Source of the DNA: Desulfovibrionaceae bacterium | Lineage (GTDB): Bacteria; Desulfobacterota; Desulfovibrionia; Desulfovibrionales; Desulfovibrionaceae | DNA length: 61,951 nt | Direction of reading: 5' to 3' | NCBI GenBank assembly: GCA_016932995.1 | Contig: JAFGBU010000037.1 | Coordinates: 1 to 61,951, forward strand | Shown: piece after piece, positions 46,305-52,285 of the stretch | How positions within the stretch are numbered: the stretch's first letter is position 1 | Layout: each line of letters opens with the position of its first letter | Translations under genes and position numbers: made by a program | The notes under the pieces: generated by a model | Told to the model about the DNA's origin: nothing | The model's input: the letters and a program-made list of their open reading frames with translations, nothing else | Databases searched by the model: none

Positions 46305-47732
46305 TCAGGAGGTCACGACGAGCACCGAGCAGCGCGCCCTGCGCGCCAGGTGCTCGCCCCTGTTGGGCGAAAACAGGCCCCGGTCCCGGCTGGAGCTGCC
46401 GACCACGACAAGGTCGTGGCCCTCGGCCAGGGCCAATATCTCGCGCACCGGGTTGCCCACCGCGCCGAGCTGCTCGAACCCGGTCCTGTGGATGTGGCCG
46501 AGCTCCTTGAGCCGTTCCCGGGCCCGGGCGGCAAAGCCCTTGTCCTCGTCGCTTATGAACACCGGCTCCTCGACCACGGCCACCCGGATCCTGGAGCCGA
46601 GCTGGCCGGCCAGGTCCACGGCCACCTCCAGGGCCAGCTCGGAGCTGGCCGTGGCGTTGAAGGGCACCAGTATCTGCTCGTAGGGGAAGGACAACCTCGA
46701 TATCAGCAGGGGGCAGTCCAGGTCGTGGGCCAGGCGGACCACGACGGGCGCGGCCAGGTACCTGAACAGGGGCGGCCTGGGCCCGGGGATCACGGCCAGG
46801 CCGAACAGGCCCCGGCCGCACAGCTCGCGCATGCGGCCGCGCACGTCCCGGACGCGCTCGATCTCGATCCCGGCGGGCTCGGGCCAGTCATCAAGGCCCT
46901 GCTCCACCTTTCCGGCCCCCTGCGGGGCCAGGACCGTGACCTTCTTGACCTTGGTGTTCCTGGACAGATACAGACCCTCGCTGAGCAGGGCCTCGGCCGG
47001 GCCGGGCGCGTCCGGAAGCCCCAAAAGCAGGCCCGGGCCGTAGGCCAGGGGGAAGTGCGCGCTGCCGCACTCCAAGAGCTCGCAGACCGGCTGGAAGGAG
47101 TCGGGCTCGCCCAGGAGCACCAGCCGGTCGTCCGGCCGGACCACGGTCCGCGGCCCGGGAAACACGAGCTCGCCCCGGCGGAATATCGCGGCCAGGCGCA
47201 GGCCCTTTTCACCGAAAAAGGCCGGCCTCTTGCCCACGGCCCGGAAGTGGTCCGAGGCCTTGAACTCGAACACCGCGCCCGGACCCGAGGCCAGGGGCGT
47301 GATGCGCATGCGCGGGTCCTCGATGTAGTGGTAGATGTCCTGGGCCAGAAGCCCGCTGCCCGTGACCGTGTGCACGCCCAGCTCCTGGAAGGGCCGCAGG
47401 TTCGCGGAGTCGTGCACCAGGGCCAGGACCCGGTCCGCGTCCTTGGCCACGGCCTCCCTGGCGATGGCCAGGTTGACCTTGTCGCTGTGGGTCAGGGCCA
47501 GGACAAAGGCCTGGTCCGCAAGCCCGGCCTCCTCCAGGAGCACCGGGCTTGCGGCGTCCCCGACCAGGGCCCTGGCCACGTTGGGGTACAGGGAGGCGGC
47601 CGTTTGGACCTTGGCCTCCGAGGTGTCGATCAGGCTGACCACAAAGCCCTCGCCCAGGCGTCTGAGGACCTCGCGGCCGACCCTGCCGACCCCGCAGACC
47701 AGTATGCTCATGGCCTGGCGAACAGCGCCCAT
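46305..47732 (-). CDS. TrkA-N / TrkA-C / universal stress protein fusion, antiporter regulator
   Basis: Encodes 475 aa from ATG 47732; ATG 47711 (MSILVCGVGRVG) is an alternative start. Order: Rossmann TrkA-N (GVGRVGREVLRRL with LIDTSEAKVQ, about 8-130), TrkA-C (about 160-225, VRPDDRLVLLGE), then a duplicated Usp-like region ending in ILVPFNATASSELALEVAVD and the nucleotide-binding GHDLVVVGSSSRDRGLF. It is cytoplasmic and probably senses NAD(H) or nucleotide and gates the CPA2 antiporter encoded directly downstream. Splitting of channel and regulator is less common than the single-chain Kef arrangement. Confidence 0.88.
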   Translation of the reverse strand: MGAVRQAMSILVCGVGRVGREVLRRLGEGFVVSLIDTSEAKVQTAASLYPNVARALVGDAASPVLLEEAGLADQAFVLALTHSDKVNLAIAREAVAKDADRVLALVHDSANLRPFQELGVHTVTGSGLLAQDIYHYIEDPRMRITPLASGPGAVFEFKASDHFRAVGKRPAFFGEKGLRLAAIFRRGELVFPGPRTVVRPDDRLVLLGEPDSFQPVCELLECGSAHFPLAYGPGLLLGLPDAPGPAEALLSEGLYLSRNTKVKKVTVLAPQGAGKVEQGLDDWPEPAGIEIERVRDVRGRMRELCGRGLFGLAVIPGPRPPLFRYLAAPVVVRLAHDLDCPLLISRLSFPYEQILVPFNATASSELALEVAVDLAGQLGSRIRVAVVEEPVFISDEDKGFAARARERLKELGHIHRTGFEQLGAVGNPVREILALAEGHDLVVVGSSSRDRGLFSPNRGEHLARRARCSVLVVTS

Positions 47733-47785
47733 GAACTCAACCTAGCACGAAGCCGTCCGCCTGGACACAAAAATCCGGACAGGGG

Positions 47786-47924
47786 CTAGGAGGTCGTTGA
47801 TAAACAATCTCCGCGCGCCAGGACGGCGCGTCCGAAAGCATTGGCTTCCAATGATTCCGGAGGGTTGGCGAAACCGCGCTTTCGCCGAATCGAGTTGAAA
47901 AAGTCCAGGACGGACTTTTTCAAC
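47786..47924. repeat. Multi-hairpin repeat element, copy 1
   Basis: This 139-bp intergenic block folds on either strand into a row of hairpins: 47789-47812 (one mismatch), 47813-47831 (GCGCGCC, loop AGGAC), 47834-47849 (weak), 47867-47886 (GGCGAAA, loop CCGCGC) and 47894-47924 (13-bp perfect stem, loop AGGAC). Positions 47786-47872 match 61865-61951 with about six differences in 87 bases. The last hairpin lies six bases past the selD stop and could also end that transcript, although no T run follows. Confidence 0.85.
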
Positions 47925-47930
47925 ATTCTG

Positions 47931-48983
47931 CTAGACCAGGCGCAGGGGTTTTTCCCCGGGCTCCGGGGCCAGGGTCCGGCCGATGTGCTCGGCCAGGTCC
48001 CCGGCCTGCCTGAGCGCGGAGCAGGCCCGTTCAAGGTCCTCCGGGGGCACGGCCAGGACCAGGCCGCCCGAGGTCTGGGCGTCGAAGACCAGGTCCACGC
48101 GGATCGGGTCCAGGCCCTTTGCGACCTCGACCCTGGGCAGATAGAAGTTCCGGTTGCAGATGCTCCCGGCCGGCAAAAGGCCCATGCCCGCCAGGTCCAC
48201 GGCCTCGGGGATGAAGGGTATGCGCTCCAGCCAGAGCTCCACGGCCACCCCGCTGGCCTTGGCCATCTCCAGGACGTGGCCGCCCAGGCCGAAGCCGGTC
48301 ACGTCCGTGGCCCCGGTCAGCCCGAGCTCGGCTATGAGCCGGCCCCCGGCCCTGTTCAGGCGCGAGGCCCAGCGGTGCAGGAGCCTTTCCAAGTCCCGGT
48401 AGCCCTCCCATTCGGCCTTGAGCGCCGTGGCCAGGACCCCGGTGCCCAGGGGCTTGGTCAGGACCAGGTCCAGGCCCGGGACCAGGCCCCGATTGCTGGC
48501 GAAACGGTCCGGGTCCACGGTCCCGGAGACCGCCAGGCCGTACTTGAGCTCCTCGTCCTCCACGCTGTGCCCGCCCGCGGGCGCGGCCCCGGCCTCCAAT
48601 ATCTTGTCCAGGCCGCCCTCCAGGACGCGCCTCAAGACCCGGGTGGGGAACTTCTTGATCGGGAAGCAGACGATGCTCATGGCCGCGTAGGGCTCGGCGC
48701 CCATGGCGTAGATGTCGGACAGGGCGTTGGCCGCGGCCACCTGGCCGAACCAGAACGGGTCGTTGACGATCGGGGTGAAGAAGTCCACGGACTGCACCAG
48801 GGCCTTGCCGGCCGGGAAGCGGAGCACGACGGCGTCCTCGTTGTCCCCTGCCTGGCCGGTCAAAATCCGGCTGTCTCCGCCCATGGGGCCGAGCCCGGCA
48901 AGAACCTGCTCCAGGTCCCCCGGAGCTATCTTAGCCGCTCAACCCGCGGCCTTGACGCTCTTGACCAGCTTGAACTCTTCCAT
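47931..48983 (-). CDS. selD: Selenide, water dikinase SelD with in-frame UGA selenocysteine
   Basis: The gene runs from ATG 48983 and reads MEEFKLVKSVKAAG, then UGA at 48941-48939 (codon 15), then AAKIAPGDLEQVL and continues without further stops to 47931: 350 aa with Sec15. In SelD the catalytic residue is Cys or Sec in G(C/U)xxK; here it is GUAAK. The body shows DVTGFGLGGHVLEMAKASG, AGGHSVEDEELKYGLAVSG and FDAQTSGGLVLAVP. It makes selenophosphate from selenide and ATP. Starting at the later ATG 48884 would remove the active site. A stem-loop just after the UGA fits a bacterial SECIS. It follows copZ by 67 bp. Confidence 0.95.
48892..48927 (-). promoter_or_regulatory. Bacterial SECIS element of selD
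   Basis: The message folds just downstream of the UGA into a lower stem AGC(U)CCGG paired with CCGG...GCU and an upper stem GACCUG paired with CAGGUU (one G-U pair), with apical loop GAG about 30 nt from the UGA and a bulged U. Distance and form fit a SelB-binding SECIS. The pairing was worked out by hand. Confidence 0.75.
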
Positions 48984-49050
48984 TTCCCCTTCCTTGTCCC
49001 GCGCCTGTGGTCGTGTAGCACGCCGCCCCGGCCCGGGCAAACCCGGGCCC

Positions 49051-49254
49051 TCAGGCGTAGGCGGCCTCGTACCCGGCCCTGCGCACGGCCTCGAGCACCG
49101 CGGCCTCGGAGACCTCGGGCCCGGCTCTGAACACCGCCTCCCCGGCCGCGAGGTCCACGGCCACCTCGCTCACCCCGTCGACCGACTCCAGGGCCCTGGC
49201 CACCGCCTTGCGGCAGTGCCCGCAGCTCATGCCCTTGATCTTTATCCTGGCCAT
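49051..49254 (-). CDS. copZ: Copper chaperone CopZ (HMA domain)
   Basis: Encodes 67 aa from ATG 49254, with GGGAGGCGAG before it. A single heavy-metal-associated domain: MARIKIKGMSCGHCRKAVAR holds the CxxC copper site at Cys11 and Cys14, and the C-terminal LEAVRRAGYEAAYA is standard. It carries Cu(I) in the cytoplasm and hands it to CopA, encoded 78 bp upstream. No copper regulator such as CsoR or CueR is adjacent in the window. Confidence 0.92.
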   Translation of the reverse strand: MARIKIKGMSCGHCRKAVARALESVDGVSEVAVDLAAGEAVFRAGPEVSEAAVLEAVRRAGYEAAYA

Positions 49255-49332
49255 CTCGCCTCCCGGGACGGCCCGCCCGGGCCGCACCCTATGCCCTTCT
49301 ACGCCCAAGGCCGGGCAAAGCACAACCGCCGC

Positions 49333-51627
49333 CTAGGGCCTGAAGGACCTGAGCCTCAGGGCGTTGGAGACCACGGCCAGGGAGCTCATGGCCATGGCCG
49401 AGCCCGCGAGCATGGGGTTCAGGGTCGGGCCGCCGAACAGGTGCAGGACGCCCGCGGCCACCGGGATGCCCACGACGTTGAAGGCAAAGGCCCAAAACAG
49501 GTTCTGCCTGATGTTGCGCATGACCGCCCGGCTCAGGGCGATTGCCGCCGGCACCCGGCTCAGGTCCGGCCGGACCAGGACCACGTCCCCGGCCTCCACG
49601 GCCACGTCCATGCCCGAGCCCATGGCCAGGCCCACGTCGGCCGCGGCCAGGGCCGGGGCGTCGTTCACCCCGTCGCCGACCATGGCCACCCTGAGCCCCT
49701 GGGCCTTTAGCCCTGCAACCTCCCGGGCCTTGCGCTCGGGCAGGACCCGGGCCGCCACCCTGTCGATCCCCGCCCCCCGGGCCACGGCCCTGGCCGCGGC
49801 CTCGGTGTCGCCGGTGAGCATGACCGCGTCCAGGCCCATGGACCTCAGCCTGGCCACGGCCTCCGCGGCCTCGGGCCTGAGCCGGTCGGCCAGGCCGAAG
49901 ACCGCTGCCAGGCGGTTGTCCAGGGCCAGGTACAGGGCGCTGACCCCCCGCTCGCCGAGGCCCCGGCCCGGGTCCTGGTCCGGGCAAAGGACCTGGTTCG
50001 CGTCCATGAACTCCCGGTTGCCGAGCAATATCCTTTGCCCGTCCAGGACCGCAAAGACCCCCATGCCCGGCGCGGCCTCGAAGTCCCGGACCTCGGGCAA
50101 ATCGAGACCCCTGGCCCGGGCCGCCCGGACCACGGCCTCGGCCAGGGGGTGCTCGGAGAGCCTCTCCACGGCCGCGGCCAGGCCAAGGGCCCGGTCCGGA
50201 TCAAGACCCGCCGGGACCTCCAGGACCTCGACCACCTCGGGCCGGCCCACGGTCAGGGTCCCGGTCTTGTCAAAGACCACCACGTCTATCTTGGCCGCGG
50301 CCTGCAGGGCCGCGCCGCTCTTGACCAGTATGCCGAGCTGCGCGCCCCGGCCCGTGCCGACCATGATCGAGGTCGGCGTGGCCAGGCCCATGGCGCACGG
50401 GCAGGCGATGACCATGACCGCGACCAGGATGCGCAGGGAAAAGGACAGCCCGGCCCCGCCGATCAGGAGCCAGGCCAGGCCCGAGGCCAGGGCCGCGGCC
50501 ATGACCGCGGGAACGAAGTAGAAGCTGACCCGGTCGGCCAGGTCGGCTATGGGCGCCTTTGTGCCCTGGGCCTGGCGGACCAGGCGCACGATCCCGGCCA
50601 GGGTGGTCTCCCGGCCCACGCGCTCGGCCCTGACGGTCAGGGACCCGTGGGCGTTCAGGGTCCCGGCCGTGACCTGGTCGCCCACGGCCTTGGCCACGGG
50701 CATGGACTCGCCGGTGAGCATGGACTCGTCCACGCTGGACGCGCCCCTGACCACGGCCCCGTCAACAGGCACCCGCTCCCCGGGCCGGACCAGCACCAGG
50801 TCGCCCGGGGCCAGCTCGTCGACCCGGACCGTTTCCTCGCCCTGGTCCCGGATCAGGAGCGCGGTGTCCGGCGAAAGCCTCATGAGCGCGCCGACCGCCT
50901 CGCCGGTCCTGAGCCTGGCCCGGGCCTCCAGGAACCTGCCCAGGGAGATCATGGCCAGGAGCACGGCCGCGGACTCGAAGTACAGGTCCCGGGCCCTGGC
51001 CGCGGGGTCCAGGCCCAGGACCATGTCCGTCAGGGACCACAGGCTGTAGGCGAGGGCCGCGCCGGTGCCCACGGCGACCAGGGAGTCCATGTTCGGGGCC
51101 CGGCGCCACAGGGCGGGCAGGCCCCGCACATAGAAACCCCGGCCCAACCAGACCACGGGCAGGGCCAGGCCCAGCTGGGTCAGGCCGAAGGCAAGGGGCG
51201 AGTGCTCCGGGTCGAGCCATGAGGGCAGGACCAGGCCGACCATGTGGCCCATGGCCAGGACCAAGAGCAGCAGGGCGAAGAACAGGGCCGGGACCAGGCT
51301 GCGGCCCTGGCGGGCCAGATCGCGCCTGGACTCCTCCTGGCGGCGCGCAAACCCGGACCCAGAGTCGTCCAGGTCCTCGGCCCGGTACCCGGCCTCCCTG
51401 ATCGCCCTGCGCACGGGCCCGGGCCCGGTCCTTGCGGGGTCGTAGTCGAGCTCGGCGCCGGCCGAGGCCAGGTTGACCGAGGCCCGGAGCACGCCGGGCA
51501 GGGCGCGCAGGGCGCGCTCGATCCGGGCGGCGCAGGCCGCGCAGCTCATGCCCTTGACCGCCAGACGCAGGGTGGCCAGGGCCGGGCCGGGGCCCTCAGG
51601 CCCGGGGTCGGTTGATCTTTCCCGCAT
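49333..51627 (-). CDS. copA: Cu(I)-exporting P1B-type ATPase CopA
   Basis: Encodes 764 aa with one N-terminal HMA domain (GMSCAAC, Cys29 and Cys32), eight predicted membrane helices, the actuator TGES motif (305-308), the transmembrane CPC metal site (409-411, [13 protein letters not shown]), the phosphorylation site DKTGTLT (Asp453), an HP dipeptide (SEHPLAE) and the hinge [10 protein letters not shown]. The C-terminal NxxxN segment ends in [11 protein letters not shown]. It pumps Cu(I) from the cytoplasm across the inner membrane. All catalytic motifs are intact. It starts the copA-copZ-selD run. Confidence 0.95.
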
Positions 51628-52116: not shown

Positions 52117-52256
52117 CCGTCCTCCGCGCCCCGGGGCCTGGAGACAAAAAGACCGGATCGCCGCTCTGGGCAACCCGGCCGTCCCTGCGGCCCTAAGGCC
52201 GCGCTCGCTCCAGAAGGACCCGTGGTTTTCCGCCCCCCAATCCCTGGGGGTTGGCT

Positions 52257-52285
52257 TTTCGGATCGGAACCATAAACAATATAAT
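52257..52285 (+). promoter_or_regulatory. Probable promoter of fabD-argS
   Basis: A perfect -10 TATAAT at 52280-52285 lies in an AT-rich patch 100 bp before fabD. The -35 is weak: TTTCGG at 52257-52262 is the match at 17-bp spacing, and the better TTGGCT (52251-52256) is too far away. The unit is likely to depend on an activator or a leader element. Confidence 0.45.

Follow-up and report, generated by a model that had tools for sequence, protein, structure and literature searches.

A selenocysteine-type selD gene with an in-frame UGA at the catalytic position in a Desulfovibrionaceae bacterium

In this study, a stretch of 61,951 nucleotides from a Desulfovibrionaceae bacterium (the window) was analyzed. 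One of its genes is very probably an ordinary bacterial selD encoding selenocysteine (Sec) as the catalytic residue, with a probability of about 0.97 as judged from sequence. This reading is based on a UGA in an open and conserved frame, a hairpin downstream of it, the presence of selA, selB, and tRNA-Sec, and a TGA in nearly all examined members of the order.

The selD frame ran on the minus strand from an ATG at 48983 to a TAG at 47933–47931 and was open except for one TGA. With TGA read as U, the translation had 350 residues, and its sole TGA was codon 15. This agreed with the initial annotation, which had followed the frame through a single UGA at 48941–48939 to the ATG at 48983 and had placed G-U-A-A-K at the catalytic site. 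It had also held that standard gene calling would lose the first 33 codons together with the active site. The open reading frame listed with translation table 11 was 47931–48884 (317 aa); since it begins at 48884, those 33 codons are indeed lost together with the active site, and this table-11 gene call is corrected here. The features are summarized in Table 1.

Table 1. Features of the selD region in the window.
Feature	Position	Strand	Basis or remark
selD, selenide water dikinase, 350 aa, predicted Sec at residue 15	47931..48983	−	TIGR00476, Pfam AIRS and AIRS_C, translation with one TGA
In-frame UGA (putative Sec codon), catalytic position, motif G-U-A-A-K	48939..48941	−	Sequence, translation, alignment to 3u0o_A and 2yye_A
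bSECIS-like hairpin, stem GCUCCGGG/CCUGGAGC, loop GGA	48908..48926	−	13–31 nt after the UGA; folding tests
Shine-Dalgarno-like stretch AAGGAAGGGGAA before ATG 48983	48984..48995	−	Read by eye
Dispersed repeat of about 148 bp	47783..47930	−	Starts directly after the selD stop codon

The table-11 listing is exactly what would be obtained if the true start were the ATG at 48884, with a 317-residue protein that lacks the catalytic loop and a non-coding frame upstream. The solved chain 2zau_A (311 residues) aligned only from query residue 59, so a SelD core lacking the loop is at least workable as a protein. However, relatives with as little as about 42% identity conserve the protein sequence encoded by the upstream codons, and the UGA occupies the same column in them. 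Since these codons align with SelD relatives that have TGA in that column, the UGA is not due to chance. The purine-rich AAGGAAGGGGAA ahead of ATG 48983 resembled a Shine-Dalgarno sequence by eye, whereas none was seen by eye before ATG 48884. The shorter protein was considered highly improbable.

The identity of the protein was investigated by profile search and by alignment with solved structures. The SelD protein scored 319 bits against TIGR00476, above the curated cut-off of 125, and contained both AIRS domains (Pfam AIRS and AIRS_C). It was aligned by phmmer with the chains 2yye_A (E 1.7e-59) and 3u0o_A (E 5.7e-57), the latter of which we take to be the E. coli SelD enzyme. The UGA residue was opposite a Cys in both chains ('agcgck' in 3u0o_A and 'sgcaak' in 2yye_A), which together with the profile score bore out the proposed SelD identity with Sec at the catalytic position. 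Lys18, at +3 from U15 in the N-terminal loop, fell on a Lys in both chains. 3u0o_A is a Cys-type SelD of the same family, and its catalytic residue and Lys align with those of the window SelD. Compared with C-G-C-K of 3u0o_A, the window SelD has a predicted Sec for the first Cys and Ala for the second.

SelD is listed as a selenoprotein family with the motif UxxK in a passage of PMC13188914. The U-A-A-K of the window SelD fits this motif in a protein of family TIGR00476, and no difference from such bacterial SelD was seen. SelD is on the 2006 selenoprotein lists of Desulfovibrio vulgaris and D. desulfuricans (PMC1794560, Table 3), in accordance with the earlier remark that some bacteria are known to have SelD with Sec. 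According to a passage of the same paper, no bacterial selenoproteins are more widespread than FdhA and SelD. Among 223 reference prokaryote genomes, Sec was found in 19% of the detected SelD genes, always at the same position, according to a passage of PMC4561486. Set beside the Sec-SelD of Desulfovibrio and Deltaproteobacteria in the lists of PMC1794560, the window protein comes from the same group, would likewise be a selenoprotein, and differs only in its own sequence. Since SelD was already a listed selenoprotein, including in Desulfovibrio, a Sec-SelD in the window is ordinary. Both for the enzyme and for this bacterial group, Sec in SelD was described about twenty years ago and is not novel, and more generally it is established that SelD frequently is a selenoprotein.

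The codon at the catalytic position was compared across 247 genomes drawn evenly from the larger order (presumably Desulfovibrionales), of which 217 had a SelD match. SelD was inspected in 175 of these 217 (150 listed and 25 more), mostly as the TGA count in the aligned stretch; the catalytic codon itself was read in 107 loci covering the site, corresponding to 99 distinct sequences. Among the 150 matches listed, each from a different genome, 149 had exactly one TGA and one (G112) had none. The closest relative among the matches listed was 72% identical to the window SelD. The genome_contigs set held 50 SelD loci, and the 49 covering the site comprised 48 with TGA and one with TGC (L083). Of these loci, the nearest ones with a genus name were from an uncultured Desulfovibrio (71%, L048) and Desulfoplanes (64%, L050), which points to Desulfovibrionales as the order. 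A further 33 genomes were hand-picked, not randomly drawn, for having no selB, no SelD match, or a low-scoring SelD; 27 of them matched, with 21 TGA, 4 Cys, 1 fragment, and 1 remote protein. The SelD of G023 was a fragment outside the site, and that of G204 was a remote SelD-like protein with 29% identity. Six of the 99 distinct sequences were without TGA at the site; all six had Cys codons, one of them being the remote SelD-like protein L127. In the column of the UGA, these sequences had either TGA or a Cys codon. A second stop was present in the SelD alignment of L051 and L073.

The TGA is one base from TGC or TGT, the codons carried by four genomes of the order, and could have arisen from a Cys-type selD by erroneous sequencing or a recent nonsense mutation. 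The single TGA in 149 of the 150 listed matches and the Sec machinery in the host genome stand against this, and it was judged extremely unlikely.

The host genome was searched family by family. The assembly (2.48 Mb, 49 contigs, 99.5% complete) had one selD match. The family search gave selA at 593 bits and selB at 365.9 bits, and a tRNA-Sec with anticodon TCA was found at 85.7 bits (ARAGORN, Rfam). selA and selB shared a contig and were separated by an M18 aminopeptidase gene (L099, G000:C32:22000-33000); the flanking open reading frames, named by eye, are presumably folC-like and murA-like. A full-length fdhA (1367 bits) had one in-frame TGA; the further fdhA matches were two contig-end fragments, of which one had one TGA and the other lacked it, and a weak match. 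Because tRNA-Sec, selB, selA, and an fdhA with TGA are present, the host has what Sec decoding requires; the bacterium has the genes for making selenoproteins. The lack of selA, selB, and selC, which had been named beforehand as an argument against a Sec-type SelD, was not observed, as all of these were found in the same assembly as selD, along with the UGA-containing fdhA. A second tRNA-Sec candidate (C13, 51.6 bits, over the Rfam cut-off) was identified by ARAGORN as tRNA-Ser with anticodon TGA and was rejected. For selenouridine use (ybbB, TIGR03167), no match above the cut-off was found in 11 genomes including the host, and two weak ones were below it. Read-through of the UGA, or its reassignment to an amino acid other than Sec, found no supporting evidence and is scarcely credible given the TCA tRNA-Sec, selA, and selB, and the exclusive use of Cys codons (remote L127 included) in sequences without TGA.

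The Cys-codon SelD genes of the order had TGC in G112 and G232 and TGT in G126 and G159. In these four genomes (95–99% complete), selA, selB, and tRNA-Sec were not found. Both selA and tRNA-Sec were found in all six TGA genomes examined for comparison (G000, G087, G104, G235, G164, and G196). selB was not found at E 1e-60 in the UGA genomes G087, G104, and G235, though selA and tRNA-Sec were present; assembly gaps are the likely cause. The selB search over the 247 genomes used E 1e-60 and five scored candidates per genome, so its misses are no proof of absence. The Cys-type SelD at L102, L103, L106, and L109 (G112, G232, G159, and G126) were orphan SelD, with selA, selB, tRNA-Sec, and ybbB not found; orphan SelD has been linked to selenium-dependent molybdenum hydroxylases (PMC2276186). 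Six genomes (G056, G071, G103, G234, G241, and G245) had selB and no SelD match, which may reflect an assembly gap or a divergent SelD.

The hairpin of bacterial SECIS elements follows a distance rule of 16–37 nt. In the window, the two stem strands were at 48926–48919 and 48915–48908 with the loop at 48918–48916, and the distance from the UGA to the loop GGA was 20 nt. A hairpin directly 3' of the UGA with a G in a small apical loop is a feature of bacterial SECIS according to a passage of PMC1088965, and the window hairpin had a G in such a loop. The stability of the hairpin was investigated with 1000 synonymous recodings drawn with the gene's own codon usage. The hairpin was more stable than the recodings (p = 0.014). 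Among distinct UGA relatives, 63 of 93 had p < 0.05 and 30 were above 0.05, with a median z of −2.47; these sequences are related, so the tests are not independent. Only one of the six Cys-codon sequences, L103 (G232), had p < 0.05, which would fit a Sec-to-Cys change with the old hairpin retained. The codon-preserving z at the hairpin was second of 322 windows in selD, after an overlapping window one codon upstream, and by raw energy the 30-nt hairpin window was 26th of 325 in this GC-rich gene. At gathering scores, the Rfam search of the window returned no SECIS family. The hairpin was thus present at the right distance, as had been claimed, and stood out against the recodings, though dinucleotide shuffles of the 44-nt segment were not significant (z = −1.22, 27 of 200 as stable).

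From established knowledge of the pathway, SelB with Sec-tRNA(Sec) and GTP would bind the hairpin when the ribosome arrives at the UGA, and would then insert Sec15. The finished SelD, with Sec15 and Lys18 in a mobile N-terminal loop, would convert selenide and ATP to selenophosphate, with which SelA would turn Ser-tRNA(Sec) into Sec-tRNA(Sec). Using Sec and making selenophosphate, SelD would thus be both supplier and customer of the Sec pathway. Since completion of SelD needs Sec-tRNA(Sec), the UGA might serve as a switch that senses selenium and provides positive feedback. It would be conserved in the order, with Cys taking its place only where the Sec system was lost, and in selenium starvation a minor product without Sec might or might not be made from ATG 48884. 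Such a switch is considered unlikely.

Just upstream of selD, a CopZ-like HMA protein and a copper-type P-type ATPase were encoded on the same strand (49051–51627, minus). A c-di-GMP-I riboswitch (52166–52265, minus; 42.5 bits, Rfam) preceded a short minus-strand open reading frame from ATG 52116 to 51685, the longer form of which had no Pfam or NCBIfam match. A tRNA-Asp called by ARAGORN at 46352–46436 (minus) was within a TrkA/Usp gene and absent from the Rfam result, and is probably false.

The repeat abutting selD opened with a perfect 13-bp inverted repeat, GTTGAAAAAGTCC, and had 38 matches in the host assembly, fragments included. The repeat alignment contained 20 copies including that of the window, and 19 could be anchored. 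TAG or TAA preceded 16 of the 19, with CTAG in 9 of these; at selD, the preceding TAG was the stop codon itself. In 13 of the 16, an open frame of at least 32 codons ran into the repeat, a raw count in GC-rich DNA. None of 140 other loci contained an exact match to the central inverted repeat. The repeat is possibly a miniature mobile (MITE) or REP-like element with CTAG/TTAA-like insertion sites that serves as a source of stop codons or terminators. At L146 (G000:C26:68100-70100), an MscS-type mechanosensitive channel gene (Pfam MS_channel_2nd) was located between two short inverted copies of the repeat.
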